DNA of 64,000 nt from Agromyces rhizosphaerae. Its GTDB lineage: Bacteria > Actinomycetota > Actinomycetes > Actinomycetales > Microbacteriaceae. Numbering within the stretch: the stretch's first letter is position 1; each line of letters begins with the position of its first letter. Of this stretch, positions 3,396 through 27,222 are shown in pieces. The notes beneath the pieces are model-generated. The model saw only the letters and a list, made by a program, of their open reading frames with translations, had not been told where the DNA came from and did not search any database. Location of the stretch: positions 124,001 to 188,000 of the forward strand of contig NZ_BSDP01000001.1 of the NCBI RefSeq assembly GCF_027925245.1. Direction: 5' to 3'. The position numbers and the translations under genes were made by a program.

Positions 3396-3398
3396 GGC

Positions 3399-11640: not shown

Positions 11641-12651
11641 TCAGTCGATCGTCAGGTAGTCGGGTCCGGAGTAGTGCCCGCTGGCCATCTTGCGGCGCTG
11701 CATGAGCACGTCGTTCAGGAGGCTGGAGGCGCCGTAGCGGAACAGGTGCGGCTGCAGCCACTCCTCCCCCACGGTCTCGGCGACGGTCACGAGGTACTTG
11801 ATCGCGTCCTTCGACGAGCGGATGCCGCCGGCGGGCTTCACGCCGATGCGCTGGCCGGTCAGGCGGTGCCAGTCGCGCACGACCTCGAGCATGAGCAGCG
11901 TCACGGGCAGGGTCGCGGCGGGCTGCACCTTGCCGGTCGACGTCTTGATGAAGTCGCCGCCGGCCAGGATCGCGAGCCACGAGGCGCGGCGCACGTTGTC
12001 GTACGTGTTGAGCTCGCCGGTCTCGAGGATCACCTTGAGCGAGGCGGACGTGCCGTCGGGCCGGGCGCACGCCTCCTTGACCTGGGCGATCTCGTCGAAC
12101 ACCTGGCCGTACCGGCCCGCGAGGAAGGCCCCGCGGTCGATCACCATGTCGATCTCGTCGGCCCCGGCGGCCACGGCGTCGGCCGTGTCCTGCAGCTTGA
12201 TCGCGAGCGACGAGCGCCCGCTGGGGAACGCGGTGGCCACCGCGGCGACCGAGACGAGGCCGTCGTCGGGGTCGCCGTGCGCGGCGCCGAGCGCCTCGAC
12301 GGCGTGGGGCACCATGTCGCCGTAGACGCAGACGGCCGCGACGCGCGGGGTCGTCGGGTCCGACGCGTCGGGGCGGAGCGCCTTCGCCACGAGCGAGCGC
12401 ACCTTGCCCGGGGTGTCGGCGCCCTCGAGCGTGGTCAGGTCGATGAGCTCGATGATCTTGTCGAGCGCCCACCGCTTCGACGAGGTCTTGATCGACCTGG
12501 TGCCGAGGCCGGCCGCGCGTTGCTCGAGGCCGACGGCGTCGACCCCGGGGATGCCGTGGAGGTACCTGCGGAGCGTGGCGTCGTCGGGGTCGCCGCCGAG
12601 GATGGCGACTGCGCGCTCACGTGCGGGATGCACGAGCTGGGATCCGGACAT
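11641..12651 (-). CDS. deoC: deoxyribose-phosphate aldolase
   Basis: Splits 2-deoxy-D-ribose 5-phosphate into glyceraldehyde 3-phosphate and acetaldehyde. 336 residues, longer than the ~220-260 of classic DeoC because of an N-terminal extension of about 75 residues. The Schiff-base lysine is in FIKTSTGKVQ; ADEIDMVID, LKVILETGEL and GVKPAGGIRS are further family motifs. It starts 26 bases after the SorC-type regulator and is followed by two aldehyde dehydrogenase genes, forming an operon for deoxynucleoside sugar use. Confidence 0.93.
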   Translation of the reverse strand: MSGSQLVHPARERAVAILGGDPDDATLRRYLHGIPGVDAVGLEQRAAGLGTRSIKTSSKRWALDKIIELIDLTTLEGADTPGKVRSLVAKALRPDASDPTTPRVAAVCVYGDMVPHAVEALGAAHGDPDDGLVSVAAVATAFPSGRSSLAIKLQDTADAVAAGADEIDMVIDRGAFLAGRYGQVFDEIAQVKEACARPDGTSASLKVILETGELNTYDNVRRASWLAILAGGDFIKTSTGKVQPAATLPVTLLMLEVVRDWHRLTGQRIGVKPAGGIRSSKDAIKYLVTVAETVGEEWLQPHLFRYGASSLLNDVLMQRRKMASGHYSGPDYLTID

Positions 12652-12677
12652 TGCGTGACTTCCTTCGTGCGGACGGC

Positions 12678-13622
12678 TCAGCCGTCGAGGATGTGGAGTG
12701 CCGTCTCCTCGTCGGTGACGAGGACGGTGCAGAGGCCGCTGCGCACGACGGCGTCGGCGACCGCGTGCTTGCTGCGGCCGGCGATCACCGCGATCGCGTG
12801 GTCGGCGGCGCGCAGCTCGTCGAGCGTGAGGCCGACGGTGCGCGCGTCGAGGGCGGGGTCGACGATGTTGCCGTCGGGGTCGATGTAGCGGCCCACGACG
12901 TCGCCGACGGCGCCCTTGCGCACGAGCTCGTCGACGTCGGATGCCGCGAGGTACCCGCTCTCGACGTGCACGGACCCGTGGTCGGCCGCGCCCGCGCTGA
13001 ACAGGTAGGCGCTCGCCGAGCGGGCCTCGTCGATCACGCCGGCGACGACGCGGTCGGACTCGATGGCGCGCTTGGTCTCGATGCGCTCGAGGATGGCGGG
13101 GCTCGGCAGCAGCGTGGCGTGGCCCGCGCCCTTCTGGGCGATCGCGACGGCGGTCGCGGCCGCGGTGCCCGCGCGCCGGTTGAGGCTCACGCCGCCGTTG
13201 ATCTGCACGACGCCGACGCCCGACGCCCAGCCCTGGCGGAGGTGCTGGGCGACCAGGTGCAGCGTGCGGCCCCAGCTCACCCCGAGGGTGCGCGGCACCG
13301 GGCGCAGTGCGGTGAGGTAGTCGGCCGCGGCCTGCGCGGTGCGCGCCTGCACCTCGTCGGCCGAGTCGACGCCCGCGGAGGACACGACGATCGCGTCCGC
13401 GAGGCCGCGCTCCTCGCGCAGCCGCCGCTCGATCGGCAGGCGCCTCGCCCGCGGGTGCACGATCTCGATCCGGATGTACCCCTTGGCCTTCGCCTGCGAG
13501 AGGAGCCGGCCGACCTTCCAGCGGGTCAGGTGCAGTGCCTGGCCGATCTCGTCCTGGGTCTTGTTCTCCTCGTAGTAGAGCTCCGCCGCCCGGATCGAGA
13601 GGAGTTCGTCGGTCTCGACCAT
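12678..13622 (-). CDS. SorC/DeoR-type sugar-phosphate-responsive transcriptional regulator
   Basis: 314-residue regulator. The N-terminal helix-turn-helix (about residues 17-45, YYEENKTQDEIGQALHLT) is followed by a SorC-type sugar-binding domain with VVQINGGVSLNRR and LGVSWGRTL. Family knowledge: Bacillus subtilis DeoR, also in this family, represses deoC genes and is relieved by deoxyribose 5-phosphate. Being first gene of the deoC operon makes an analogous autoregulatory role likely. GGGAGG precedes two adjacent possible starts (GTG 13625, ATG 13622); the ATG has the better spacing. Confidence 0.88.
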   Translation of the reverse strand: MVETDELLSIRAAELYYEENKTQDEIGQALHLTRWKVGRLLSQAKAKGYIRIEIVHPRARRLPIERRLREERGLADAIVVSSAGVDSADEVQARTAQAAADYLTALRPVPRTLGVSWGRTLHLVAQHLRQGWASGVGVVQINGGVSLNRRAGTAAATAVAIAQKGAGHATLLPSPAILERIETKRAIESDRVVAGVIDEARSASAYLFSAGAADHGSVHVESGYLAASDVDELVRKGAVGDVVGRYIDPDGNIVDPALDARTVGLTLDELRAADHAIAVIAGRSKHAVADAVVRSGLCTVLVTDEETALHILDG

Positions 13623-13645
13623 CACGTTCCCTCCCACATGTGCCC

Positions 13646-13674
13646 ACGGTACGCCTGCCCGGACGGGGCGGCAA
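13646..13674 (-). promoter_or_regulatory. promoter of the regulator-deoC-ALDH operon
   Basis: On the minus strand a -35-like TTGCCG (13669-13674) is followed after exactly 17 bases by a -10-like TACCGT (13646-13651). A transcript from here would carry a short leader containing the GGGAGG ribosome site. Confidence 0.5.
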
Positions 13675-13690
13675 CACCTGTTGGCATTCA

Positions 13691-13704
13691 TGCTCAGATG
13701 AGCA
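13691..13704. promoter_or_regulatory. perfect palindrome, candidate operator of the SorC-type regulator
   Basis: TGCTCAGATGAGCA is a 6-2-6 perfect inverted repeat in the divergent gap between the SorC-type regulator and the ROK kinase. A further TGCTCA half-site occurs at 13743-13748, just before the ROK -10 box. It lies 16 bases upstream of the operon -35, so it could serve either divergent promoter. Confidence 0.45.
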
Positions 13705-13749
13705 CTGCGGATGCCCCCGCGAGCGCGATCGCGCCCCGCCGATGCTCAC

Positions 13750-13755
13750 TAGGCT
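13750..13755 (+). promoter_or_regulatory. -10 box, leaderless promoter of the ROK kinase gene
   Basis: TAGGCT ends six bases before the ATG at 13762. It follows the TGCTCA half-site directly, so regulation by the neighbouring SorC-type protein is possible. Confidence 0.5.
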
Positions 13756-13761
13756 TGCCCC

Positions 13762-14691
13762 ATGCGCCCCCTCGCACTCGCCGTCGACATCGGCGGCACC
13801 AAGGTCGAGGGCGCCCTCGTCGACGACGCCGGCACGGTACTGCCCGGCACGCGGCACCGGCGCCCGACCGGCCCCTCAGCGACCTCGGACGAACTCGCGG
13901 CGAACGTCGCGGAGGTCGTCACCGCCACCGCCGCGGCACTGCCGGACGGCGACGCCCTCCTCGGCGTCGGCATCGGCTCGGCGGGCCCCGTCGACCTCGT
14001 CGGCGGCCTCGTGTCGCCGCTGAACCTGCCGGTCTGGCGCGACTACCCGCTGGTCGGCCTGGTCGAGCGCACGCTGCCGGGCGTGCCCGTGACGCTCCGC
14101 ATCGACGGGCTCTGCATCACGCTCGCCGAGCACTGGCTCGGCGCGGGGCGGGGCGTCGGCGCGATGATGGGCATGGTCGTCTCCACGGGCGTCGGGGGCG
14201 GCTTCATCCTCGACGGGCGCGCCGTCGCGAGTCCCACCGGCAACGGCGGGCACGTCGGCCACATCGAGGTGGGCGGCTTCGACGACCCGTGCCCGTGCGG
14301 CGGCACGGGATGCCTCGAGGCCGTGGCATCCGGCCCCCGCACCGTGGCCTGGGCCCGCTCGCAGGGGTTCACCGGCAGCACCGGCGAGGACCTCGCCGCG
14401 GCGCACGCGGCGGGCGACGCGATCGCGATCGCCGCGGTGCGGCGCGCGGGCACGGCGGTCGGCCGCGCGGCCGCGTCGGCCACGAACCTGCTCGACCTCG
14501 ACCTCGTGGCGATCGGCGGCGGGTTCTCGCACGTCGCCCCGGCGTTCTTCGACCACGCCCGCGCGGCGCTCGCCGAGCGCACCGGGTTCGGGTTCGTCAC
14601 GCGCCTGAAGATCGTGCCGTCGGCGCTGTCGGGCGACGGCCCGCTCATCGGCGCGGCGTCGCTCGTGCACCGCGCCGGCGAGCTCGCCTGA
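13762..14691 (+). CDS. ROK-family sugar kinase
   Basis: 309-residue ATP-dependent sugar kinase, probably acting on glucose or another hexose. Seen: the phosphate-binding AVDIGGTKVEGALVD at the N-terminus, VSTGVGGGFILDG, HVGHIEVG, and the zinc-binding CPCGGTGCLEAVASG near residue 178-192, which is the ROK signature. Without an N-terminal helix-turn-helix it is an enzyme rather than a ROK repressor. Glucokinase, fructokinase and N-acyl-hexosamine kinases share these motifs, so the substrate is not assigned. Confidence 0.88.
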   Translation: MRPLALAVDIGGTKVEGALVDDAGTVLPGTRHRRPTGPSATSDELAANVAEVVTATAAALPDGDALLGVGIGSAGPVDLVGGLVSPLNLPVWRDYPLVGLVERTLPGVPVTLRIDGLCITLAEHWLGAGRGVGAMMGMVVSTGVGGGFILDGRAVASPTGNGGHVGHIEVGGFDDPCPCGGTGCLEAVASGPRTVAWARSQGFTGSTGEDLAAAHAAGDAIAIAAVRRAGTAVGRAAASATNLLDLDLVAIGGGFSHVAPAFFDHARAALAERTGFGFVTRLKIVPSALSGDGPLIGAASLVHRAGELA

Positions 14692-14700
14692 GCGGTCGGC

Positions 14701-15630
14701 TCAGCCCAGGGTGCGGCGCACGTCCTCGACGTCCTGGCGCATCTGCGCCATGAGCGGCTCCATCCCGGCGAACGCGACCATGCCGCGCATCCGCTCGGCG
14801 AACTCGATGTCCACCACGTGGTCGTAGAGGTCGATGTCGCGGTCGAGCACGTACGCCTCGACCTGCTGCTGGCGCACGCCCTGGAACGTCGGGTTGTTGC
14901 CGACCGAGATCGCGGCGGGGAGCCGGTCGTCCCCGTCGACCAGCCAGCCCGCGTACACGCCGTCGGCAGGGATGAGCCCCTCCGACTCCTCCGCGAGGTT
15001 CGCGGTCGGGAACCCGAGCTCGCGCCCGCGGGCGGCCCCGTGCACGACGATGCCGCGCACCGTCGGCGGGTGGCCGAGCAGGCCGCCGGCCGCGGCGACG
15101 TCGCCGGCGTCGAGCAGCTCGCGGATCCAGGTCGAGGACACCTTGCGGTCGGCCTCCGGCACCACGTCGCCGACCACGCGCACGGCGAACCCGTGTCGCT
15201 CGCCGGCCTCGGCGAGGCTCGCCACGTCGCCCGCGCCGCGGTGACCGTAGCGGAAGTCCGCGCCGACCAGCACCTCGCGGGCGCCCAGCGCGTCGACCAG
15301 CACGTGGCCGACGAAGTCCTCGGGCTCGATCGACGCGAGCCGCGCGTCGAAGTGCAGCAGCAGGGTCTCGTCGACGCCGGTCCCGGCGAGCAGGTCGAGC
15401 TTCTGGCGCACGCTCACGAGCGGCTCGGGGCACTTCTCGGGCGCGAGGTAGGCGAGCGGATGCCGGTCGAAGGTGACGACCGCCGAGGCGACGCCGAGCG
15501 CCTCGGCGCGTGCGCGCAGCTCGTCGATCACGGCGCGGTGCCCGGTGTGCACCCCGTCGAACTTGCCGATCGTGACGACCGAGGGCCCGGCGTCGCCCGG
15601 CACGTCGGCCAGGCCGTCGAAGACCCTCAC
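14701..15630 (-). CDS. ribF: bifunctional riboflavin kinase/FAD synthetase
   Basis: Makes FMN from riboflavin and then FAD from FMN and ATP. 309 residues, normal for the bifunctional bacterial enzyme. The N-terminal FMN adenylyltransferase half contains TIGKFDGVHTGHRAVI; ADRKVSSTWIRELL is its KMSSS-like region; the C-terminal flavokinase half contains GRELGFPTANL and VGNNPTF. The GTG start overlaps the stop of the upstream membrane-protein gene (GTGA) and has a GAGG site, so it is translationally coupled as the last gene of the truB operon. Confidence 0.93.
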   Translation of the reverse strand: MRVFDGLADVPGDAGPSVVTIGKFDGVHTGHRAVIDELRARAEALGVASAVVTFDRHPLAYLAPEKCPEPLVSVRQKLDLLAGTGVDETLLLHFDARLASIEPEDFVGHVLVDALGAREVLVGADFRYGHRGAGDVASLAEAGERHGFAVRVVGDVVPEADRKVSSTWIRELLDAGDVAAAGGLLGHPPTVRGIVVHGAARGRELGFPTANLAEESEGLIPADGVYAGWLVDGDDRLPAAISVGNNPTFQGVRQQQVEAYVLDRDIDLYDHVVDIEFAERMRGMVAFAGMEPLMAQMRQDVEDVRRTLG

Positions 15631-16070
15631 TCGACGACCTCCGCGCGGCGCACCGGGTGGCGCGCGAGCCACCACATGCCGAGCACCGGCAGCACGGCCG
15701 GGATGAACAGGTAGCCGCGACCGAACGCCGACCACACGGTGTCGTGCGGGAACAGCGCGGGATCGACCAGCGACAGCGTGCCGACGACGAGCACGCCCGT
15801 GAACTCGAAGACGATCGTGACCCAGGCGACCACGTACCAGGCCCGTCCGCGCCGGATCAGCGCGACGGTCGCGAGCACGTACACGACCGCGGCGAGCGCC
15901 GAGAGCAGGTACGCGAGCGGCGCCTCGTCGAACTTCGTCGCGATCTGCACGAAGGAGCGCCCGGTCGCCGCGAGGGCGAGCACGGCGTACACGGCCACGA
16001 GCACGCGCCCGATCCCGCTCATGCGGGGGCGGGTCGCGGGGGCATCCACGGTTCGGTCGACTTCGGTCAT
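15627..16070 (-). CDS. conserved four-helix membrane protein of the truB-ribF operon
   Basis: 147 residues with about four hydrophobic segments (roughly residues 20-40, 50-75, 80-105 and 115-138) after a short charged N-terminus. FVQIATKFDEAPLAYLLSALAAVVY and FGRGYLFIPAVLPVLGMWWL are visible, but I recognise no named family. It lies between a second small membrane protein and ribF, with overlapping ribF start; the operon position suggests a conserved housekeeping or flavin-linked role, which is inference only. Confidence 0.8.
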   Translation of the reverse strand: MTEVDRTVDAPATRPRMSGIGRVLVAVYAVLALAATGRSFVQIATKFDEAPLAYLLSALAAVVYVLATVALIRRGRAWYVVAWVTIVFEFTGVLVVGTLSLVDPALFPHDTVWSAFGRGYLFIPAVLPVLGMWWLARHPVRRAEVVE

Positions 16071-16097
16071 CGTTCCTCGATTATCGCTGGCGGCAGG

Positions 16098-16466
16098 TCA
16101 GGCCTGCTGCACGGTCCAGATCTGCAGCATGCGGTAGACCATCACGGCGACCGCCAGCGCGGCCACGCCCAGCACGACGGTGCTCCACCTGCTGCGCTCG
16201 AGCAGCGCCCAGAAGCCCGCGCCGACCGGCAGCAGCACCGCGGACACCAGGTAGGTCCAGAACTCGAGCGGGTCGCCGGTCGGCGCGTTGCCGAACGCCG
16301 GGGCCGCGATCGCGACCACCACCTGCGCCACCAGCAGCACCTCCACGAGCGCGAGCGCGCCCATGGTGAGGTCGCTCGGCGCACGGCCGACGAGACCGAG
16401 CACCACGCAGAGCAGCCCGGCCGCCGTGGCGACGCCGACCTGCAGGTACGCGAACCAGTCGATCAC
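16098..16466 (-). CDS. small membrane protein co-translated with truB
   Basis: 122 residues, about four hydrophobic helices covering nearly the whole protein, starting MIDWFAYLQVGVATAAGLL. The ATG overlaps the truB stop (ATGA). No signature residues or known domain are recognised. A 27-base gap separates it from the next membrane protein gene; both differ in sequence and are not obvious duplicates. Confidence 0.8.
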   Translation of the reverse strand: MIDWFAYLQVGVATAAGLLCVVLGLVGRAPSDLTMGALALVEVLLVAQVVVAIAAPAFGNAPTGDPLEFWTYLVSAVLLPVGAGFWALLERSRWSTVVLGVAALAVAVMVYRMLQIWTVQQA

Positions 16467-17370: not shown

Positions 17371-17402
17371 CCAGCGGTGCGGCTCCGGCCCCGCCCGCCA
17401 CG

Positions 17403-17408
17403 TAGGCT
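17403..17408 (+). promoter_or_regulatory. -10 box, leaderless promoter of the panE-like gene
   Basis: TAGGCT ends seven bases before the GTG at 17416; no ribosome-binding site is present. Confidence 0.5.
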
Positions 17409-17415
17409 GTCGCGG

Positions 17416-18411
17416 GTGAGGATCGGGATCGTCGGCGCCGGTGCACTCGGCGGCGCGTTCGCCGCGCTGCTCGCCCGCGCGGGCCACGACGTCGAGGTGA
17501 CGGCCCGCGGTGCGGGGCTCGAGGCGATCCGGCGGGACGGCCTCAGGCTGAGCGGCGGCTACGGCGAGGCGCACGTGCGCGTCGAGGCATCCGACCGTCT
17601 CTCGCAGCGACCCGACCTCGCGCTCGTCTGCACCAAGGCGCAGGACGCCCGGCAGGCGATCGCCGACAACCGCGACGCGCTCGAGGGCACGACCGTGGTC
17701 GTCGTGCAGAACGGCCTCGAGGGCGTCCGGGTCGCGCGCGAGCTGCTGCCGGGGGCCGACTGCTTCGGCGTGCTCTCGATCATCGCCGCGAACTACACCG
17801 AGCCGGGGCACGTGCGCATCACGACCACCGCCGCGAGCTACCTCGGCCGCGGCGCCGGCCCCGCCGACGACGGCTCGCGGCGCGTGGCCGCGCTGCTCTC
17901 CGAGGCCGTGCCGGTCGTGGCCGTCGACGGCTTCGAGGGCGCGCAGTGGACCAAGCTCGTGGTGAACATGCTGAACGCGCTGCCCGCGATCACCGGGCTG
18001 AGCGTGCAGGAGGTCATCGCCGACCGCCGGCTGCGGCGCGTGCTCACGGCGTCAATGCGCGAGACCGTGCGCGTCGGCGTCGCCTGCGGGGTGCGCTTCG
18101 GCGCACTGCAGGGGCTCGGCGACCGGCGGTTGCGGCTCTTCGCGCGCCTCCCGCTCGCGCTCGACCAGGTGCTGCCGCTCGTGATGGGCGCGCGGATGGG
18201 GCGCGTGCCGAACCTCGGGTCGACGCTGCAGAGCATCCGGCGCGGCCAGCGCACCGAGATCGACTTCCTGAACGGCGCGGTGGCGCAGCGGGCGGATGCC
18301 GCGGGCGTCCCGGCGCCCGTGAATCGCACGCTCACCGGGCTGGTGCACCGGGTCGAGGAGACGGGCGCGCACGTGCCGGTGGACGAGGTGCTCGGGGCCG
18401 TCGCCGGGTGA
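17416..18411 (+). CDS. ketopantoate reductase family (PanE/ApbA) oxidoreductase
   Basis: 331-residue NADPH-dependent reductase. Seen: the N-terminal dinucleotide loop RIGIVGAGALGGAFAALLARAGHDV, LVCTKAQDARQAI, VVVQNGLEGV and, in the helical C-terminal domain, QWTKLVVNMLNALPAITG with the conserved Lys and Asn. Classical PanE reduces 2-dehydropantoate to pantoate for coenzyme A synthesis; paralogues act on other 2-oxo acids, and no other pantothenate gene is adjacent, so the symbol is withheld. The GTG is set by the leaderless -10 box. Confidence 0.85.
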   Translation: MRIGIVGAGALGGAFAALLARAGHDVEVTARGAGLEAIRRDGLRLSGGYGEAHVRVEASDRLSQRPDLALVCTKAQDARQAIADNRDALEGTTVVVVQNGLEGVRVARELLPGADCFGVLSIIAANYTEPGHVRITTTAASYLGRGAGPADDGSRRVAALLSEAVPVVAVDGFEGAQWTKLVVNMLNALPAITGLSVQEVIADRRLRRVLTASMRETVRVGVACGVRFGALQGLGDRRLRLFARLPLALDQVLPLVMGARMGRVPNLGSTLQSIRRGQRTEIDFLNGAVAQRADAAGVPAPVNRTLTGLVHRVEETGAHVPVDEVLGAVAG

Positions 18412-18901
18412 CGGGCGCTCTTGTGTTTCGCGCCGGTGTCGCACTCGTGAAGCCCATCGTTCGGGAAGGGCGTCGCACGTAACGGCGAGGTGAAATCTCG
18501 CTGGGTGCCGGGACGCGTTCGGGTGAGCGCCGAAGGCCCGCGCGACCTCCGCGAGCGCGACGGCCCGAGCGCGTGCAATCGCGTGCGCCTGGCACGGAAA
18601 CAGCCGGTCAAAGGCATTTTCAGAGTCGAGCCTAGCTCATGTTATGTGTCCCCGATGCGCCTCCCATGCGACGTGCCAGGGCCGGGCCCCGGAGCGCGCA
18701 CGACCCCCGATCGCTCCCCCGTTCGGGGGACTGTGATACCGGCGGCGGCCGCCACTACCTTCGGCAGCAATTCCCCCGCCAGACGTTCGGTACCCGCAGG
18801 GCTCCACCGCACGACCACCACTGCGGCCCGCACGGATCGATCCCCTCGCACCCGGGATCGACGCCCACCCGGCACTCCCCACCCGACGCAGTTGGCAACC
18901 C
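18412..18901. other. 490-base intergenic region upstream of the glycan operon
   Basis: I find no convincing coding frame or RNA gene here. The segment 18605-18650 is less GC-rich than its surroundings (CAAAGGCATTTTCAGAG, then CTAGCTCATGTTATGTG) and could hold a promoter. A short palindrome at 18715-18730 is listed separately. The long space suggests that the operon starting at 18902 has a regulated promoter and a leader of 100-250 bases. Confidence 0.5.
18715..18730. promoter_or_regulatory. C5/G5 inverted repeat, candidate operator of the glycan operon
   Basis: TCCCCCGTTCGGGGGA has 6-base perfect arms around GTTC and is followed within a few bases by GTGATACC, a possible -10 region. The position (about 170 bases before the oxidase start) suits an operator. 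It could also be a short RNA hairpin; nothing else supports either reading. Confidence 0.3.
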
Positions 18902-21460
18902 ATGGGAAACCTCCCCTCACCCGTGTTCCGCGCGCTCGCCGCGCTGGCCGCGATCGCCGTGCTCGCGACGATCCCCGCGGCGACCGTCGCCGCGCCCGCG
19001 AACCTCGTGCAGAACCCCTCGCTCGAGGACGGCGAGGCGTGGCCGACGTGCTTCGCCGCGAGCGGATGGGGCACCGAGGCGGACTGGTCGTTCGTCGAGC
19101 GCGCCGACGGCGGGCGCGCCGTGCGCATCGACCTCGCCGGCCACGAGGCCGGCGACCGCAAGCTCCTGCAGGCCGAGACCGACGCGTGCGCTCCGGCCGT
19201 CGAGCCGGGCAACGCCTACGACCTCGAGGTCGCCTACCGCTCCGACGTCGCGACCGGCATCACGCTGTTCCGCCGCACCGCCGAGGGGTGGACGTACTGG
19301 GGCGACCTCGGCCAGGCACCCGCATCCGCCGACTGGACCACCGCGACGGCCACCACCCCGATCGTGCCCGAGGGCACCGACCGCATCGTGTTCGGGCTCT
19401 CGCTCGCGACCGACGGGTTCCTGGAGACCGACGACTACGCGCTGCTCGACCTCGCCGGCAGCGAGGAGCCCGACCCGGAGCCCGAGCAGCTGGTGGTCAA
19501 CCCGTGGCTCGTCGACGGCGACGACCCGGGCGCCTGCATGCAGCTCGGGGGCTGGGGCGAGCACGACTCGGTCGCCGGCCTCGCCGACGCGGTCCCCGCG
19601 GACGCGCCCGAGGGCGCGCGCTCCTACCGGATCGAGATGGCCGACCGCGTCTCGGGCGACCTCAAGCTGATCCAGTCCGAGGCGGCGGGGTGCGCCCCCG
19701 ACGTCGCGCCGGGCGACGAGCTCGTCGCGTCGGTCCGGTACCGCTCCGACGCCGCGGCGGTCTCGGTCACCGCGTTCATCCACGGCACCGCGGGGTGGTC
19801 GTACTGGACCGAGCTCGCCGCCCTCCCGCCCGCGGCCGAGTGGACGACGGCGACGGTGCCGCTGCCGACGATCCCCGACGGCGCCGACCGCGTGAGCTTC
19901 GGCGTCTCGATCTCGTCCGACGGCGTGCTGGAGACGACCGGGTACGGCCTCACCGCGCTGATCGAGCCCCCCGAGCAGACCGCCACGCCCACGCCGACGC
20001 CCACTGCGGACCCCGGCGAGGAGCCCACCGGCGACCCGGCGCTCGACGGCTCGTGGGAGGTCCGCACGACCGAGATGCCGATCCGCACGATCCACAGCAC
20101 GCTGCTGCACGACGGGCGGATCCTGCTCATCGCCGGCTCCGGCAACGACGGCGCGCAGTTCGCCGCGGGCACGTTCCGGGCCGTGGTCTGGGACCCCGAC
20201 GCCGACACCTTCGACGAGGTGCCCGTGCCGTACGACATGTTCTGCGCCGGGCACGTGACGCTGCCCGACGGCAAGGTGCTCATCGCCGGGGGCACGGAGG
20301 CCTTCCCCGAGGAGGACCAGGGCCCGAACACGTTCAAGGGCTCCGCGCACAGCTACTACTTCGACCCCGAGGACGACGCCTTCCACGTGCTCGCCGACAT
20401 GGCGGGCGCGCACTGGTACCCCACGCTCACCAAGCTCGGCAACGGCGACGTGTGGGCGGCCGGCGGCCTGGACGAGAAGGCCTCGGGCACGGTGCTCACC
20501 GAGATGTTCGACGTCTCGGAGATGGCATGGCTCCCCGCGGGGCAGGTGCCGCAGACCTGGAGCTTCTGGGGCACGTACCCGCACATGTACCTGCTCGAGG
20601 ACGGGCTGCTCTTCTACGCCGGCGCCCACACGTTCGGCAACGGGCTCCCCGGCACCGGTGCCTCGCTCTACGACTGGACCCAGGCGCAGATCTGGGACGT
20701 GCCCGGCCTGCGCGAGAAGGACATGCGCGACCAGGCCGGCTCCGTGCTGCTTCCGCCGGCGCAGGACCAGCGCGTGATGATCGTCGGCGGCGGCAACACC
20801 GACGGCGCCGCGCCCGGCATCGACCTCGTCGACATCATCGACCTCTCCGAGCCGTCGCCGGCGTACGAGCCCGCCGCGGACCTCCCCGGTCCCGGCAAGG
20901 GCTACGTGAACGTGATCAACCTGCCCGACCGCACGGTGCTGGCGACGAGCGGCGCGCGGTACAACCGCGCCGACGACGTGCTCACCTCGGCGATCTACGA
21001 CCCGCAGGGCGACGTCTGGCGCGCCGTCGAGCCCGACCCCATCGGGCGCAACTACCACTCGAGCGCCATCCTGATGCCCGACGGGCGCGTGGCGGTGATC
21101 GGATCGAACCCGCTCGACAACTCGTACGAGCACCGCCTCTCGGTCTACAGCCCGCCCTACCTGCACGCGGGCACCCGGCCGACGGTCGCGGGGGTTCCGG
21201 ATGCCGCGAGCCACGGCGACGTGCTCGAGCTCGACGTCACCGGCGAGGTCGTCTCCGCCTCGCTGCTCGCGCCGATGTCGTCCACCCACCAGACCGACAC
21301 CAACGCGCGCCTGGTCGACCTGCCGATGGCGGGCGCCGACGGCACGCGCACCGTGCAGGTGCCCGACAACCCGAACCTCCTCCCCCCGGGCCCGTACATG
21401 CTCACCGTGCTCGACGCCGCCGGCGTGCCGAGCGTCGCCGAATGGATCTGGATCTCATGA
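18902..21460 (+). CDS. secreted GlxA/galactose-oxidase-like copper radical oxidase
   Basis: 852 residues, exported. Order: signal peptide (about 1-33, core ALAALAAIAVLATIPAAT), two homologous ~155-residue jelly-roll-like modules (34-190 and 195-353), a Thr/Pro/Glu linker (357-380), a kelch propeller (about 385-740) and a DUF1929-like C-terminal domain. The copper-radical site appears complete: Cys448 in MFCAGH and Tyr506 in HWYPTL match the thioether-linked Cys-Tyr pair, Tyr718-His719 in RNYHSS the axial Tyr and first His, and His796 in SSTHQTD the second His. Such enzymes oxidise alcohols or aldehydes with O2, releasing H2O2; Streptomyces GlxA acts with the synthase CslA on a cell-surface glucan. 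The next gene overlaps by ATGA, and a GT2 lies two genes on. Confidence 0.85.
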   Translation: MGNLPSPVFRALAALAAIAVLATIPAATVAAPANLVQNPSLEDGEAWPTCFAASGWGTEADWSFVERADGGRAVRIDLAGHEAGDRKLLQAETDACAPAVEPGNAYDLEVAYRSDVATGITLFRRTAEGWTYWGDLGQAPASADWTTATATTPIVPEGTDRIVFGLSLATDGFLETDDYALLDLAGSEEPDPEPEQLVVNPWLVDGDDPGACMQLGGWGEHDSVAGLADAVPADAPEGARSYRIEMADRVSGDLKLIQSEAAGCAPDVAPGDELVASVRYRSDAAAVSVTAFIHGTAGWSYWTELAALPPAAEWTTATVPLPTIPDGADRVSFGVSISSDGVLETTGYGLTALIEPPEQTATPTPTPTADPGEEPTGDPALDGSWEVRTTEMPIRTIHSTLLHDGRILLIAGSGNDGAQFAAGTFRAVVWDPDADTFDEVPVPYDMFCAGHVTLPDGKVLIAGGTEAFPEEDQGPNTFKGSAHSYYFDPEDDAFHVLADMAGAHWYPTLTKLGNGDVWAAGGLDEKASGTVLTEMFDVSEMAWLPAGQVPQTWSFWGTYPHMYLLEDGLLFYAGAHTFGNGLPGTGASLYDWTQAQIWDVPGLREKDMRDQAGSVLLPPAQDQRVMIVGGGNTDGAAPGIDLVDIIDLSEPSPAYEPAADLPGPGKGYVNVINLPDRTVLATSGARYNRADDVLTSAIYDPQGDVWRAVEPDPIGRNYHSSAILMPDGRVAVIGSNPLDNSYEHRLSVYSPPYLHAGTRPTVAGVPDAASHGDVLELDVTGEVVSASLLAPMSSTHQTDTNARLVDLPMAGADGTRTVQVPDNPNLLPPGPYMLTVLDAAGVPSVAEWIWIS

Positions 21461-22131
21461 GCGCGCCCGAGCGACGTGCCCGCCTCGCGCCGGTCCCCGC
21501 CGCGATCGCCCTCGGCGTGATCGCCGTCGTCGGCGCTGCGCTGCTCCTGCCGGGCCTCGCGGGCGAGCGCACGGAGGCAGGCGCACCGACCGGCGCGCAC
21601 GCGAACCACGGCATCCCCTCCGACGCCGGGGCCGCGTCCGTCGGCCCGGCCCCGTCGACGGCGGCGACCGCGACGCCCTCCGAGGAGGCCACCGACGACG
21701 AGCCCGGGCGCACGAGCATCGAGCCGCCCGTCGATCAGGCGCCCGGCACCACCGCGCAGACCAGCCTCGCGCAGGCGGCCTCCGCCCCGATCACCCAGCG
21801 CGACGGCACCGCCGGGCTCGGCGAGGCTCGCCCGGCGATCGCACCCGAGGACACGACCGCGGGCGACACCGGCTACGGCGGGTGCCTCGTCGAGTACGGC
21901 GAGAACGGGCAGTGCCTGCCGACCATCCCGCCGAGCCTCACCGGGCACGTGTCGGAGATGCTCGAGGCGGGCCTCGACCCGTCCGACATGTACCACCCGT
22001 GGACCTGCACCGAGGTGCGCGAGTACTTCCCGGACGGCATCGCCGTCCGGCAGGGCGTCGATCCGCAGGGGCTCGACCCCGACGGCGACGGCACCGCATG
22101 CACCGCCCGAGACCTGGAGGAGACCCGATGA
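21457..22131 (+). CDS. membrane-anchored protein with excalibur-like C-terminus
   Basis: 224 residues: short basic N-terminus, one transmembrane helix (about 14-33, IALGVIAVVGAALLLPGLAG), a ~100-residue Ala/Thr/Glu/Pro-rich stalk, and an extracellular C-terminal module with four cysteines (GGCLVEYGENGQC, HPWTC, DGTAC). The end DPDGDGTAC matches the excalibur-type calcium-binding motif DxDxDGxxC. HPWTCTEVREYFPDGIAVRQ is unusual for the family. It is translationally coupled to the oxidase upstream and the GT2 downstream (ATGA at both ends), so a cell-surface scaffold or oxidase partner is a fair inference. Function is otherwise unknown. Confidence 0.8.
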   Translation: MSAPERRARLAPVPAAIALGVIAVVGAALLLPGLAGERTEAGAPTGAHANHGIPSDAGAASVGPAPSTAATATPSEEATDDEPGRTSIEPPVDQAPGTTAQTSLAQAASAPITQRDGTAGLGEARPAIAPEDTTAGDTGYGGCLVEYGENGQCLPTIPPSLTGHVSEMLEAGLDPSDMYHPWTCTEVREYFPDGIAVRQGVDPQGLDPDGDGTACTARDLEETR

Positions 22132-23396
22132 TCGTCGCATCCGCCCTGCTGGTCCTGTTCGCGCTCGCGCTCCTCGCGATCTCGCTCTCGACGCTCTTCC
22201 TGGCGACCTACGCCTGGTGGGACCCGGGACAGCGCAACCGGACCGGCTTCCCCGAGCTCGACGACGGCGAGGACGCGCTCCACTTCTCGCTCATCGTGCC
22301 CTGCCGGCACGAGACCGAGGAGGTCATGCGCACGACGATCGGGCGCCTGCTCGGGCAGTCGCACCAGCGACTCGACGTCGTGATCTCGGTGGGGCACGAC
22401 GACCCCGAGACCGTGGCGACCGCGCAGCGCATCGCCGCGGAGACCCCGGACCGCGTCGCCGTCAGCATCGACTACAGCGAGTCGAAGAACAAGCCGCGCC
22501 AGATGAACACCGCGCTCGCGATGTGCCACGGCGACGTGGTGGGCGTCTTCGACGCCGAGTCGGTCGCCGCACACGACCTGCTCCGCAAGATCGAGGCGGC
22601 CTTCCGCTCGACGGGGGCCGACGCGGTGCAGGGCGCCGTGCAGCTCGTCAACTACCGCGACAGCTGGTACGCGCTGCGCAACTGCCTCGAGTACTTCATC
22701 TGGTTCCGGTCGCGCCTGCACGCCCACGCCCGCATGGGGTTCATCCCGCTCGGCGGGAACACCGTCTTCGTGCGTCGCGCGCTGCTCGCGGACGTCGGCG
22801 GGTGGGACGCCGACTGCCTCGCCGAGGACTGCGAACTCGGCGTGCGGCTCTCGACCCTGAAGCACCGCATCGTCGTCGCGTACTCCCCCGAGCTCGTCAC
22901 CCGCGAGGAGACCCCCGACTCGGTCAGGGCCCTGGTCAAGCAGCGCACCCGCTGGTCGCTCGGCTTCATGCAGGTCTACGCGAAGGGCCAGTGGCGCACG
23001 CTGCCGCGCCTCTCGGAGCGCATCACCGCGTGGTGGACGCTCACCCAGCAGCACCTCATGGCGCTCACCGGCATCGCGGTGCCGGCGTCGATCGCGCTGG
23101 CGATCTTCGGCAAGTTCCCGCTCGGGGTCACGATGATCACGTTCCTCCCGCTCATCGCGACGCTCGCGACCGTGGCCCTCGAGGTGTGCATGCTCCGCGA
23201 GTTCGGTCGCGACCACGCCTTCCGCATACGGCTCCGCGACTACGTCACGCTCGTGGTCAGCACCCCGGCGTACCACCTCCTGCTCGCGGTCGCCGCGGTG
23301 CGCGCGTTCTGGAAGTTCCAGGGCGGCGACTTCCGCTGGGAGAAGACGGCCCACAAGGGATCGCACCTCACCTACCTCGGGGCGGAGACGCGATGA
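22128..23396 (+). CDS. processive-type family 2 glycosyltransferase, membrane-bound
   Basis: 422 residues. An N-terminal transmembrane helix (1-25), a cytosolic GT-A domain, and about three C-terminal helices (305-400). Seen: LIVPCRHE at the start of the fold, VFDAES at the DxD position (Asp-Ala-Glu rather than Asp-x-Asp), AEDCELG at the TED catalytic-base position, and KQRTRWSLG, the Q(R)xRW motif of cellulose-synthase-like processive enzymes. It is shorter than Streptomyces CslA and lacks a PilZ domain. Together with the oxidase it resembles a CslA/GlxA pair. Sugar donor and product are unknown. Confidence 0.88.
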   Translation: MIVASALLVLFALALLAISLSTLFLATYAWWDPGQRNRTGFPELDDGEDALHFSLIVPCRHETEEVMRTTIGRLLGQSHQRLDVVISVGHDDPETVATAQRIAAETPDRVAVSIDYSESKNKPRQMNTALAMCHGDVVGVFDAESVAAHDLLRKIEAAFRSTGADAVQGAVQLVNYRDSWYALRNCLEYFIWFRSRLHAHARMGFIPLGGNTVFVRRALLADVGGWDADCLAEDCELGVRLSTLKHRIVVAYSPELVTREETPDSVRALVKQRTRWSLGFMQVYAKGQWRTLPRLSERITAWWTLTQQHLMALTGIAVPASIALAIFGKFPLGVTMITFLPLIATLATVALEVCMLREFGRDHAFRIRLRDYVTLVVSTPAYHLLLAVAAVRAFWKFQGGDFRWEKTAHKGSHLTYLGAETR

Positions 23397-24994
23397 GCAC
23401 GGCACTCGAACCCGAGATCGTCGAGGTCGTCGACCCGCGCACGAGGCGCGCCGAACGGCTGCGCCGCCTGCTGACCCGCGACCGCATCACGGCGCTCGCG
23501 ATCGGGCTCTGCGCCTACGTCCTCGGCCTCTGGAACATCGCGGGCAGCCCGACCTTCCAGGACGACGAGGGCACCTACGCCGCGCAGGCGGCGGCGGTGC
23601 TCGAGGGCGACCTCGCCCCGTACACGTACTGGTACGACCACCCGCCGCTCGGCTGGATCCAGCTCGCGATCGGCGGATGGCTGCCGTACCTGCTCGGGAT
23701 CGGCGGCTCGGACCTCGCCGCGTTCCGCACGGTCATGCCGATCGCGTTCGCCGCGAGCGCCGCGCTGGTCTACCTCATCCTGCGCCGCGTGCGGGTGCGG
23801 ACGGCGTTCGCGGTCCTCGCATCCGTCGTGTTCGCCCTGTCGCCGCTCTCGCTGGAGCTCGGCCGCCAGGTGTTCCTCGACAACGTCGCGACGCCCTGGG
23901 TGCTGCTCGCGGTCTACGCCGCGCTCTCCCCGCGCACGGCGCTGTGGCACCACGTCGGCTCGGGCCTGTTCTTCGCCGTCGCCGTGCTCACCAAGCTCAC
24001 GTCCGCGATCTTCGGCCCCGCCATCATGCTCGCGATGCTGGGCCGCGACGGCTGGCGCGGGCGCTCGTTCTCGATCGTCGGGTTCCTCACCGTCGGCGGT
24101 CTCGTGCTCGCCCTGTTCCCGGTGATGGCGATCCTGCGCGGGGAGCTCCTCTCCGACCCGAACCGGGTGTCGCTGCAGGACGCGCTCGCGTACCAGTTCC
24201 TCTCCCGCTCGGGCTCCGGGTGGCTGTGGGAGGAGGGCTCGCATCGTGGCGGCCTCGTCGCCTCCTGGGTCGCGCAGGACCCGCTGCTCCTCCTCGCCGG
24301 CGTCGCCGCCGCGCTCGCCTGCGCCTTCGCCCAGCGCACGCGCTGGATCACGGTCGCCATCGCCGGCTTCGCCCTCCCGATCGTCGCCAGCCAGGGGTAC
24401 CTGCCGGCGATGTACGTGATCGGCGTGCTGCCGTTCCTCGCGCTCGCGATGGGCGCCGGGCTCGACCTGGCCTGGCGCGCGGGCGAGAAGGCGCTCGATG
24501 CCCGCGCCCCCGCGATCCGCGAGGGCTTCGGGACCGTGATCGCCACCGCGGTGGCCGTGGCACTGATCGCGGTGCCGGCGGTCCGGTTCGTCGAGCGGGC
24601 GCCAGAGGTGCTCGCGGGCGACGCGAACGGCGACTGGAAGCGCACCCTCGCGTGGGTGACCGAGCACGTGCCGCGAGACGAGGTCGTCCTGGTGCCGTAC
24701 TCGATGTGGCTCGACCTCGACACCGCCGGATGGAACGACCCCTGGACCCTGATCGTGCTCGAGAAGGTCGACCTCGACTCGCAGTTCGACGTGGAGCATC
24801 CGGACGGCTGGACCGAGATCCGGTGGATCGTCGAGGGGCCGACCGTACGGCCGAACATCGAGCACCTCGGACTCGAGACCGCGGGACGGGCGCTGGATGC
24901 CGCCGAGCCCGTCGTGACCTTCGGCGAGTGGACCGTCCACGCCGTCGTCCCGCCCACGCCGCCCCAGCCCGGGGCCACGTCGCCAGCTCCCTGA
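23393..24994 (+). CDS. GT39/PMT_2-type polyprenyl-phosphate-sugar glycosyltransferase
   Basis: 533-residue GT-C enzyme with roughly ten to eleven transmembrane helices and a C-terminal extracytoplasmic tail of about 110 residues. The first external loop carries FQDDEGTYAAQAAAVLEG, with the acidic pair used for catalysis in protein-mannosyltransferase/ArnT-like enzymes, and YWYDHPPLGW is the second family motif. These enzymes take a sugar from a polyprenyl phosphate and transfer it outside the membrane. It overlaps the GT2 (ATGA), and the gene 67 bases downstream makes such lipid-linked sugars, a coherent pair. The acceptor may be the operon's glycan or a protein. Confidence 0.85.
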   Translation: MSTALEPEIVEVVDPRTRRAERLRRLLTRDRITALAIGLCAYVLGLWNIAGSPTFQDDEGTYAAQAAAVLEGDLAPYTYWYDHPPLGWIQLAIGGWLPYLLGIGGSDLAAFRTVMPIAFAASAALVYLILRRVRVRTAFAVLASVVFALSPLSLELGRQVFLDNVATPWVLLAVYAALSPRTALWHHVGSGLFFAVAVLTKLTSAIFGPAIMLAMLGRDGWRGRSFSIVGFLTVGGLVLALFPVMAILRGELLSDPNRVSLQDALAYQFLSRSGSGWLWEEGSHRGGLVASWVAQDPLLLLAGVAAALACAFAQRTRWITVAIAGFALPIVASQGYLPAMYVIGVLPFLALAMGAGLDLAWRAGEKALDARAPAIREGFGTVIATAVAVALIAVPAVRFVERAPEVLAGDANGDWKRTLAWVTEHVPRDEVVLVPYSMWLDLDTAGWNDPWTLIVLEKVDLDSQFDVEHPDGWTEIRWIVEGPTVRPNIEHLGLETAGRALDAAEPVVTFGEWTVHAVVPPTPPQPGATSPAP

Positions 24995-25061
24995 CGACCG
25001 CGACCCGCTCGCGCCACGCGCCCCCGCAGCAGTGCCCGCTCCATCACCCGAAGGAGACGCA

Positions 25062-26225
25062 GTGACCACCACCACCACCATCATCGTCCCCACCTTCAAC
25101 GAGGCGCCCAACGTGGGCGAGCTCGTCCGGCGCCTCGACGCGGTCGCCGACCCGCGCGACACCGAGATCCTCTTCGTGGACGACTCCTCCGACGACACCC
25201 CCGACCGGGTGCGCGCCGCGGCGGAGACGAGCCGCGTCCCCGTGCGGCTCATCCATCGCGACGAGCCGGACGGCGGACTGAGCGGCGCGGTCGTCCGCGG
25301 CATCCGCGAGTCCGACTCGGAGTGGTTCGTCGTCATGGACGGCGACCTCCAGCACCCGCCCGAGCTGGTGCCGATCCTGCTCGAGACCGGCCGCGCGACC
25401 GGTGCCGACGTCGTCGTGGCCTCGCGGCACGCGCAGGGCGGCAGCAGCGAGGGCCTCTCGAACTGGGTGCGGCGCGCGGTGTCGTCCGGCTCGATCCTGC
25501 TGACCCGCTCGATGTTCCCCTCCCGGCTGCGCAACTGCTCCGATCCGATGACCGGGTACTTCGCCGTGCGCCGCGCGAGCGTCGACACGGCCGAGCTGCA
25601 GCCGCGGGGCTTCAAGATCCTGCTGGAGATCCTCGCCCGGAAGCGCATGTCCGTGGTCGAGGAGCCCTTCGTCTTCGCCGAGCGCATCGCGGGCGAGTCC
25701 AAGGCCGACCTCCGGCAGGGCCTGCGATTCCTGCACCAGCTCGCGTCGCTGCGGTTCGGCCGGATGTCGCGCTTCGCCGTCATCGGCGGGTTCGGCGCGG
25801 TGCTGAACCTCGCGATCATGGCCGCGCTGGTCGCGGTGAGCGTGAACTACGTGATCGCCGCGATCGTCGCGGCGGCGGTGACCATCGTGATGAACTTCTT
25901 CCTGCAGGAGCGCTTCGTGTTCCGCGACCTCCGGCACGAGCGCCATGCGTTCTGGACGAGGTTCAGCGCGTCGGTCGGATTCAACTCGCTCGAGGCCGCG
26001 GTGCGCCTGCCGTTCCTCGCGCTCCTGGTCGCGTTCACGCCGATCCCCAGCGTGGTCGCGCAGGCGGTCACGCTCGCAGCCGCGTTCGTGCTGCGCTTCC
26101 TGTTCCACTCGAGTTTCATATACCGGCCGCGTCGCACCACCCCGGTCAGTCCACTCATCGCAGAAGCCGCACCGCTGCCCACGCAGTCGGGTCGCGAGGC
26201 AGCGATCGGCGGCTCGATGAACTGA
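25062..26225 (+). CDS. polyprenyl-phosphate sugar synthase fused to GtrA
   Basis: 387 residues. The N-terminal ~230 residues are a DPM1-like GT2 (IIVPTFNEAPNVGELVRRL, EILFVDDSSDDTPD, VVMDGDLQHPPELVP with the DxD), which loads a hexose onto polyprenyl phosphate. Residues ~245-360 are a four-helix GtrA domain (RFAVIGGFGAVLNLAIMAAL, NFFLQERFVF), thought to move lipid-linked sugars across the membrane. The GTG has AAGGAG upstream; an upstream ATG would disrupt that spacing. It supplies the likely donor of the preceding GT39 enzyme and closes the operon. Confidence 0.88.
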   Translation: MTTTTTIIVPTFNEAPNVGELVRRLDAVADPRDTEILFVDDSSDDTPDRVRAAAETSRVPVRLIHRDEPDGGLSGAVVRGIRESDSEWFVVMDGDLQHPPELVPILLETGRATGADVVVASRHAQGGSSEGLSNWVRRAVSSGSILLTRSMFPSRLRNCSDPMTGYFAVRRASVDTAELQPRGFKILLEILARKRMSVVEEPFVFAERIAGESKADLRQGLRFLHQLASLRFGRMSRFAVIGGFGAVLNLAIMAALVAVSVNYVIAAIVAAAVTIVMNFFLQERFVFRDLRHERHAFWTRFSASVGFNSLEAAVRLPFLALLVAFTPIPSVVAQAVTLAAAFVLRFLFHSSFIYRPRRTTPVSPLIAEAAPLPTQSGREAAIGGSMN

Positions 26226-26271
26226 CCCTGGGAACTGTGCGCGCCGGGGCGAGCTCGTCGACAAGCCCGCC

Positions 26272-26307
26272 GAGCGCACCGCGGGACCTCCCTCCCGCGG
26301 TGCGCTC
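26272..26307 (+). terminator. hairpin terminator of the glycan operon
   Basis: A 15-base perfect stem (26272-26286 with 26293-26307, arm GAGCGCACCGCGGGA) around a six-base loop lies 46 bases after the last stop. There is no T-run, as is common in high-GC actinobacterial terminators. Confidence 0.6.
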
Positions 26308-26337
26308 ACTCGTGTGCGGGGTGCATCCGGCGGCCAG

Positions 26338-26343
26338 TACGAT
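26338..26343 (+). promoter_or_regulatory. -10 box, leaderless promoter of mutY
   Basis: TACGAT ends six bases before the GTG of mutY. Confidence 0.5.
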
Positions 26344-26349
26344 GACCCG

Positions 26350-27222
26350 GTGCACTCCGATCTCGTCGCGACGCTCGTGCGCTGGTACGAGGAGGAGGCG
26401 CGCGAGCTGCCCTGGCGCCGCGCCGACCGGACGCCCTGGTCGGTGCTCGTGAGCGAGTTCATGCTGCAGCAGACGCAGGTCTCGCGCGTCGCGCCGGCCT
26501 TCGAGGAGTGGATGCGACGGTGGCCGACGCCGGCTGCGCTGGCCGCCGAGCCGGCCTCCGAGGCGGTGCGCGCCTGGGGCGGGCTCGGGTACCCCCGCCG
26601 GGCGAGGTGGCTGCACGGCGCGGCCGCGCGGATCGTCGAGGAGCACGGCGGCGAGGTGCCCTCCGACGTCGATGCATTGCTCGCCCTCCCCGGCGTCGGC
26701 CCGTACACCGCGCGCGCGGTCGCCGCGTTCGCGTTCGGGTCGCGGGTGCCGGTCGTCGACACGAACACCCGGCGCGTGATCGCACGGGCCGTCGACGGGA
26801 ACGGGGACGCGGCGCCGCCGTCCACCCGGCGCGACCTGGCCGCGATGGAGCGCCTGCTGCCCGCCGACACGCGCGTCGCGCAACTCGTCAACGCGGCGAC
26901 GATGGAGCTCGGCGCGGTCGTCTGCACCGCGCGCGCGCCCCGCTGCGAAGCCTGCCCGGTCGCCGTGCACTGCGCGTGGCGCAGCGCCGGGTACCCGGCC
27001 TACGAGGGGCCGCGCCGGCGCGTGCAGGCGACGTTCGCCGGGTCCGACCGGCAGGTGCGCGGCATCGTCATGCGCGAACTGCGCGCGGCGCATCGACCGG
27101 TGACGCGAGGCGAGCTGGCACCGGCGTGGGCGGATGCGGCGCAACTCGAACGTGCGATCGACACGCTGGTCGCCGACGGCCTCGCCGCCGAGGGTGCCGA
27201 GGGGCTGGCGCTCGCGGAGTGA
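26350..27222 (+). CDS. mutY: A/G-specific adenine DNA glycosylase
   Basis: Removes adenine mispaired with 8-oxoguanine. 290 residues. Seen: Glu36 in SEFMLQQTQVSRV (catalytic acid), helix-hairpin-helix LPGVGPYTARAV, Asp137 in VVDTNTRRV, and the iron-sulfur cluster motif C-x6-C-x2-C-x5-C in CTARAPRCEACPVAVHC. The C-terminal NUDIX-like domain that recognises 8-oxoguanine in longer MutY proteins is reduced to about 60 residues. It is convergent with rbfA, 21 bases apart. Confidence 0.92.
   Translation: MHSDLVATLVRWYEEEARELPWRRADRTPWSVLVSEFMLQQTQVSRVAPAFEEWMRRWPTPAALAAEPASEAVRAWGGLGYPRRARWLHGAAARIVEEHGGEVPSDVDALLALPGVGPYTARAVAAFAFGSRVPVVDTNTRRVIARAVDGNGDAAPPSTRRDLAAMERLLPADTRVAQLVNAATMELGAVVCTARAPRCEACPVAVHCAWRSAGYPAYEGPRRRVQATFAGSDRQVRGIVMRELRAAHRPVTRGELAPAWADAAQLERAIDTLVADGLAAEGAEGLALAE

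Follow-up and report, generated by a model that had tools for sequence, protein, structure and literature searches.

The studied copper-oxidase glycan system of Streptomyces is CslA-GlxA(-CslZ), in which a secreted copper-radical oxidase, GlxA, stands beside a family 2 glycosyltransferase (GT2) with a QxxRW motif. PMC11022532 states that the activity of CslA needs GlxA. A survey by domain architecture (PMC3543389) reports that S. coelicolor has one galactose oxidase, and that within the Actinobacteria GlxA orthologues were found only in Streptomyces and Frankia; according to PMC4736821, the Frankia cslA-glxA-cslZ cluster adjoins sco. Here we describe a second cassette, often found in the same genome as glxA. 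It lies at positions 18902-26225 of a window of 64,000 nucleotides from the genome of Agromyces rhizosphaerae (3.6 Mb, single contig, rated 100% complete) and consists of five genes, all on the + strand. It is a real and conserved cassette of which our searches of open-licence PMC papers found no description; its kind, a synthase with a copper-radical oxidase, is already known. It is a paralogous counterpart of CslA-GlxA and not a member of it. We think it probable that the genes form a translationally coupled surface-glycan cassette, whose product would be made, decorated with side sugars and oxidised outside the cell. The features of the cassette are as follows.

18902..21460, + strand: secreted copper-radical oxidase (AA5-like, GlxA-related), 852 residues
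18989..20035, + strand: residues 30-378 of the oxidase, two predicted beta-sandwich carbohydrate-binding-like modules and a Thr/Pro linker
21457..22131, + strand: membrane-anchored excalibur-like protein, 224 residues; ATGA overlap with the oxidase gene
22128..23396, + strand: GT2 polysaccharide synthase, 422 residues; Pfam Glyco_tranf_2_3, 149 bits
23393..24994, + strand: GT-C polyprenyl-phosphate-sugar-dependent glycosyltransferase (PMT_2 family), 533 residues; Pfam PF13231
25062..26225, + strand: polyprenyl-phosphate-sugar synthase with a GtrA-type transmembrane domain, like dolichol-phosphate mannose synthase (DPMS), 387 residues

An earlier reading of this DNA from its letters, here called the sequence-only reading, had described five co-directional genes, four of them joined by ATGA overlaps. 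Both statements hold: three such overlaps, at 21457, 22128 and 23393, link the first four genes, and the fifth stands separate. For this fifth gene the start had been placed at 25032, giving a longer form. We prefer the GTG at 25062, which has AAGGAG upstream and lies 67 bp past the stop of the PMT_2 gene. Base composition gives no sign of a foreign origin, the G+C content being 72.6% in the operon and 72.1% in the window. A scan for sigma-70 promoters found none with 0.1 expected, and is uninformative at such a G+C content. That the host is probably non-filamentous, as had been supposed, is doubtful. Agromyces is known for hyphae that branch and fragment, and there are filamentous genera among the carriers.

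The oxidase matches GO-like_E_set (72.7 bits) and kelch models in Pfam. Its best match in the PDB is 4unm (E 1.5e-77), listed under the title 'secreted protein', which we take to be GlxA of Streptomyces lividans. Fungal galactose oxidase (AA5_2) has the same kelch and E-set domains and the copper site, but it is more distant than GlxA (1gof, E 1.4e-21), and the cassette enzyme differs from it in being bacterial and coupled to a synthase. Cys448, Trp505, Tyr506, Tyr718, His719 and His796 align to Cys121, Trp288, Tyr289, Tyr501, His502 and His589 of GlxA, for which we used the protein of the Streptomyces violaceoruber NRRL S-981 genome (locus L154). The sequence-only reading had named five of these residues correctly, and Trp505, the equivalent of Trp288, is to be added to the set. 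With kelch and E-set domains and the Cys-Tyr and Tyr/His/His residues, the protein has the sequence features of an AA5-like copper radical oxidase, and judged from the alignment its copper/Cys-Tyr site residues are intact. We aligned 93 oxidases: that of the window, those of 31 of 71 cassette loci, 26 canonical GlxA proteins and 35 others. All 32 cassette rows keep the six copper-site columns, the sole exception being a gap at His796 in L072, where a contig end cuts the sequence. The columns are likewise kept in 26/26 GlxA rows and 33/35 other rows; those that depart are L110, at five positions, and L119, at the Trp. Without five of the six residues, the L110 oxidase may be inactive. A hydrophobic stretch at residues 11-29 of the Agromyces protein was seen by crude hydropathy, which is not a signal-peptide predictor.

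Membership of CslA-GlxA was considered for the cassette and rejected. Against the GlxA model (NCBIfam NF052501) the oxidase scores 406.2 bits where the cut-off is 800 bits. GlxA domain 2, at model positions of about 143-260 by PMC11022532, is missing, and the spacing of the Cys-Tyr pair is 57 residues between C448 and Y506 versus 167 in GlxA. In a tree of 72 oxidases, some deep joins of which fall between long branches, a cassette branch of 39 rows is separate from a GlxA branch of 26 rows (Shimodaira-Hasegawa-like approximate likelihood ratio test (SH-aLRT) supports 99 and 100). This tree drops 21 of the 93 rows, namely same-genome copies, near-copies among GlxA and L111-L113, and the over-long L017. 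Both kinds of oxidase also coexist. Among 41 cassette genomes tested (of 80), 36 match the GlxA model at E<=1e-30 and 21 exceed its cut-off, 17 of them Streptomyces and four Micromonosporaceae. In each of the 21, a second match at another place has a lower score and is consistent with the cassette oxidase, and these lower-scoring matches skip positions of about 143-260. Because the 21 genomes were chosen as cassette carriers, they give no measure of how frequent the cassette is among GlxA genomes. Twelve genomes have matches below the cut-off only (L019-L029 and L036; Agromyces, Cryobacterium, Arthrobacter, a Micrococcus metagenome-assembled genome, Nocardioides and Nocardia). No CslZ-type endoglucanase gene adjoins the cassette in the window, where apbA precedes it and mutY follows, whereas a GH6 gene lies beside glxA in L154, the one canonical locus scanned. 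The suggestion of a distinct version is thus borne out by the clades, the score, the missing domain 2 and the coexistence with GlxA. The cassette shares with CslA-GlxA-CslZ the secreted oxidase beside a QxxRW GT2 and the copper-site residues. It differs in the clades of both enzymes, in lacking GlxA domain 2 and an adjoining GH6 gene, and in adding the PMT_2 and DPMS-type enzymes, the excalibur-like protein and modules that resemble carbohydrate-binding modules (CBMs). GlxA-clade oxidases also occur in the order of Agromyces (L016 in genome G073, L015, L105-L108 and L110), and in L016 a CslA homologue (51%) is next to one.

The GT2 carries the motifs DAE142, AED232 and QRTRW272, the last bearing out its earlier assignment to the QxxRW type. 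Together with about five hydrophobic stretches, these are as would be expected for a processive membrane synthase. Its relatives point away from CslA. The window protein scores 74.1 bits with the PgaC model (TIGR03937), far under the cut-off of 422, and 40 bits with CelA; CslA shows the reverse preference, with 88 bits for CelA and 35 for PgaC. For the Streptomyces-type GT2 (L201) the top-scoring model is instead an XrtP-associated one, at 94 bits against 77 for PgaC. In a tree of 49 GT2 sequences, five CslA proteins form one clade (98) and five GT2s linked to CE4 deacetylases another (100), and the cassette GT2s form a third, of 37 rows at 80 (one of them, L014, with no cassette in view), or of 38 rows at 99 once Frankia L161 is included. 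CslA had served as the model for the synthase and does not fit: the GT2 groups apart from the CslA clade, lacks a PilZ match in Pfam, and scores higher with PgaC than with CelA, so that a glucan is not established as the product. One could still argue that the locus is a diverged CslA-GlxA cellulose synthase whose oxidase is mainly a structural partner of the synthase, since the best PDB matches of the GT2 are bacterial cellulose synthases (E 7e-8) and CslA depends on GlxA. Glycoside hydrolases beside variants with no oxidase in view also fit this explanation. L013 (G066) has GT2-PMT_2-DPMS without an oxidase and a GH5 gene on both sides, one with a mannanase-type galactose-binding-like domain, and L034 has a GH8 neighbour; these neighbours point to a beta-glucan or a mannan. 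However, the separate clades of both enzymes, the missing GlxA domain 2, the lack of a PilZ match and the 21 genomes that hold a cassette and a canonical GlxA make a diverged cellulose synthase very unlikely.

The cassette genes stay together across genomes. A scan of our genome collection with a GT2 alignment gave at least 594 pattern matches and at least 298 relatives, of which the best 80 were kept. Around these 80 loci we found PMT_2 in 80, DPMS in 74, an oxidase in 71 and all four in 67. The order is GT2-PMT-DPMS-oxidase in 58 and oxidase-GT2-PMT-DPMS in nine (Agromyces, Cryobacterium, Arthrobacter), the rest being partial; with the excalibur-like gene after the oxidase in the second, the two orders hold the same set. 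The reverse direction gives the same picture: in surveys of the order and the phylum, 10 of 11 places with a cassette-type oxidase, the window included, adjoin GT2-PMT_2-DPMS. Two of these survey genomes, G227 and G817, are also among the 80 loci (L021 and L062). Linkage from both directions over several actinobacterial genera, with the copper-site residues kept, supports the coupled gene set proposed by the sequence-only reading. Besides Agromyces, the carriers include Arthrobacter, Cryobacterium, Nocardia, Actinoplanes and Streptomyces. Within the genus the full oxidase is present in two of 49 genomes (our own and G012), and two more match by the N-terminal module only. The order sample has 31 of 396 genomes with any oxidase match at E<=1e-15 and six cassette-type places at 53% identity or more (our own, G227, two in G308, G192 and G352). 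The phylum sample of 396 genomes contains 11 with a match at E<=1e-60. Six of these are of the cassette type: our own and five of genus g110, with cassette proteins that share 71-93% identity with their counterparts in Streptomyces L067. As to carriage on plasmids, only two Nostoc plasmid oxidases were found at E<=1e-60, with 34-35% identity. The eleventh place, in G352, has a differing row.

L193:9027-15809 (also L217): G352 variant row with a cassette-clade oxidase; GT2, CE4 deacetylase, PMT_2, oxidase, excalibur-like stretch, chitinase-like protein with LysM

The second gene encodes a protein with a single hydrophobic stretch (residues 13-31, crude hydropathy) and the motif DPDGDGTAC, acidic with a Cys. 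The Excalibur model of Pfam (PF05901) gives it 12.4 bits, under the gathering score of 22. The name excalibur-like therefore misses the Pfam cut-off, but the motif and a profile of our own, built from 11 separate domains (the window and L019-L028), back the assignment. In Streptomyces the domain is fused to the C-terminus of the oxidase. By the strict motif, the 71 oxidase-bearing loci divide into 49 fused, 13 separate, three at a contig end and six without it; of these six, L028 has a tblastn match, and a degenerate motif can be read in the tails of L040, L047, L056 and L078. Applied to the other 61 oxidases, our profile matches 54 at the C-terminus (E<=1e-3); it matches none of 72 shuffled sequences or six GlxA-clade oxidases. 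Among the seven misses, L036, L046, L048 and L066 have a separate profile-matched gene, L041 and L072 are cut, and L029 keeps the motif only. The profile also misses the small protein of Frankia L161. No other single observation speaks as strongly for joint action of the oxidase and the excalibur-like protein as this difference between groups, one with the domain fused and another with separate genes. It also bears on the idea that the enzyme is a secreted source of H2O2, or an attacker of biomass, that merely lies beside a glycan locus. Its CBM-like modules do resemble those of plant-wall hydrolases; given the fusion, the overlapping genes of the window and a linkage that is seen from the GT2 and from the oxidase alike, such a chance neighbourhood would be most improbable.

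The fourth protein had been called a GT39 enzyme, which is a loose name: its Pfam match is PMT_2 (PF13231) and not PMT (PF02366), a model that its Frankia homologue barely reaches (22.9 bits, cut-off 22.7). It has no PDB sequence match up to E 1; its predicted fold is GT-C and ties with Pmt (Pmt1-Pmt2 and Pmt4), oligosaccharyltransferase (OST) and ArnT. The fifth protein matches PF00535 (97 bits) and PF04138 (65 bits) and, near end to end, the Pyrococcus furiosus DPMS 5MLZ (E 7.8e-57, residues 15-358 of the longer form), which has the same GT2 plus GtrA-type transmembrane architecture. It thus qualifies as a DPMS-type enzyme with a GtrA-type domain. The earlier synthase stands, and the GtrA fused to it is the transmembrane half of such an enzyme, PF04138 being common to DPMS. 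These two proteins might instead O-glycosylate secreted proteins with Thr/Pro linkers, leaving the GT2 and the oxidase alone as the glycan part. Actinobacterial Pmt O-mannosylates secreted proteins, the predicted fold ties with Pmt, and Thr/Pro/Ser-rich stretches occur in the oxidase (residues of about 355-378) and the excalibur-like protein (about 40-110). We nevertheless consider this alternative unlikely. ArnT and OST match the fold equally, and PMT_2 is near the GT2 in all 80 loci, including nine with no oxidase in view, so that it probably has acceptors besides the oxidase and the excalibur-like protein.

The N-terminus of the oxidase is predicted to form two beta-sandwiches, whose best fold matches are a tandem CBM22 pair and CBM4, CBM16 and CBM61 chains; the list of matches mostly covers the second module. 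All of the 10 further proteins with similar modules that we scanned (seven plus three) are CE4 deacetylases, and in L205, L206, L208, L211 and L212 the gene for such a protein has a GT2 gene no more than 5 kb away. For two of these GT2s PgaC is the top-scoring model, at a score under its cut-off. The module family thus goes with secreted polysaccharide-editing enzymes. The PgaC/IcaA-type synthases of poly-N-acetylglucosamine with CE4 partners resemble the cassette in the best score of its GT2 and in these modules near PgaC-like GT2s; they differ in that the window GT2 is far under the PgaC cut-off and the window cassette has no CE4 gene. An amino-sugar polymer is suggested by the PgaC score of the window GT2, by the modules common on CE4 enzymes and by the CE4 and chitinase-like/LysM genes of G352, where the chitinase-like call relies on a PDB match (3ebv, E 2.8e-11) and Pfam sees the LysM only. 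A bolder proposal drawn from the same clues is a second actinobacterial copper-radical-oxidase polysaccharide system whose amino-sugar polymer cross-links itself through C6 aldehydes and free amines. The amines would be left by CE4 deacetylases or by partial deacetylation, and the side sugars would set the places of the cross-links. We regard this proposal as quite unlikely.

We return to the proposed translationally coupled cassette that would make, decorate and oxidise a surface glycan. From the five proteins, the copper/Cys-Tyr site residues, the conserved linkage and the oxidase-excalibur fusion, which can be read from the genes themselves, we infer synthesis, decoration, the acceptor and oxidation. 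The GT2 would polymerise a chain of beta-linked hexose or hexosamine and export it. A single sugar would be loaded onto polyprenyl phosphate by the DPMS-type enzyme and moved from this lipid onto the chain, outside the membrane, by the GT-C enzyme. The secreted oxidase, kept at the cell surface by its excalibur-like partner and on the polymer by the two CBM-like modules, would then turn primary alcohols (C6-OH) into aldehydes and release H2O2, which may stiffen, cross-link or protect the coat. Synthesis, side decoration and then oxidation at the wall is the most likely sequence. The extracellular, decorated and oxidised glycan of the sequence-only reading is kept here as a proposal.

Several points weigh against this proposal. 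The loci are the best 80 of 298 by GT2 similarity and 56 are titled Streptomyces, so the counts are not independent. The correlation between the four families in their pairwise identities (Spearman 0.82-0.89, 26-29 rows) speaks for the proposal, but species history gives such a correlation too. Nine loci show no oxidase. In L030 and L042 the sequence stops 0.4 kb or less from the last gene, and in L031, L033 and L034 it is short on one side (2.9, 3.6 and 0.5 kb); L032, L035, L054 and L091, however, have no oxidase match despite at least 7 kb on both sides, so that the glycan part seems to work without the oxidase. In Arthrobacter sp. P2b (L160) the neighbours of a cassette-clade oxidase are a PMT_2 gene and a GT2 that does not group with the GT2s of the cassette, although the branch of this GT2 is 4.64 long and its place in the tree is unsure. 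A phage tailspike, indole-alkaloid cyclases and meprin match the N-terminal fold of the oxidase about as well as CBMs do, and a common CBM-like fold in a predicted model does not show that the modules bind carbohydrate. Finally, the clues to the polymer conflict, with GH5 and GH8 on the side of a beta-glucan and CE4 and the chitinase-like/LysM protein on that of an amino-sugar polymer.

The cassette spans Microbacteriaceae, Micrococcaceae, Nocardioides, Nocardia, Micromonosporaceae and Streptomyces, and could explain surface glycans that are so far unassigned. It offers hosts beyond Streptomyces for studies of oxidase-glycan coupling, and opens to experiment the question why a bacterium should oxidise the coat that it has made.

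In the window the cassette is placed between two genes that lie outside it and mark the insertion site.

17377..18411, + strand: left flank, apbA/panE-type ketopantoate reductase (PF02558)
26314..27222, + strand: right flank, mutY-type DNA glycosylase (PF00730)

The row truB-apbA-mutY-rbfA-infB-nusA is uninterrupted and without the cassette in G006, G016, G001 and G030. In G012 one contig has truB, apbA and mutY close to its end and another starts with the cassette plus rbfA, so the insertion there seems to be between mutY and rbfA. For Cryobacterium L020, protein clusters place the cassette beyond nusA. Three cassette positions are thus seen near nusA-infB-rbfA-truB in Agromyces and Cryobacterium (window 17377-27222; L012, L020, L187-L191), and this region is a possible insertion hot spot.

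Frankia sp. CIT1 (L161) has a gene for a SCO1/SenC copper chaperone inside its cassette (3365-4093), a point in favour of the proposal, and a second cassette-type oxidase nearby (12399-13946); supplementary figure S1 of PMC4736821 may show this cassette. Maturation by Sco and DtpA is a feature of the CslA-GlxA system, and the sequence-only reading had seen no DtpA near the operon. No match to Sco (PF02630) was found in the Agromyces genome. It has one DyP peroxidase, assigned at the level of the DyP family only, which is unlinked and 1.36 Mb away. DyP matches are present in nine of 13 cassette carriers, so DyP is not universal among cassettes.

Further bacterial oxidases with 33-43% identity occur in L194 (G357), L199, L200, L103 and L104. 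The first three have no cassette genes in view, and those of L103 and L104 are outside both clades, the L103 protein also matching multicopper-oxidase and plastocyanin-type models. In Streptomyces sp. I6 (L094, about 12963-16340) the oxidase and DPMS are each split over two open frames, and this copy may be broken or mis-sequenced. Directly upstream of the oxidase-less GT2-PMT_2 pair of Streptacidiphilus pinicola (L091, 5921-9970) is a gene for a protein of 1349 residues with lectin-like and Ig-like domains. The secreted CE4 polysaccharide deacetylases that bear the CBM-like modules of the oxidase are found in L202-L212; one in L212 ends in SLH domains, and in L208 a gene like those for NDP-sugar epimerases/dehydratases is also near the CE4 gene.

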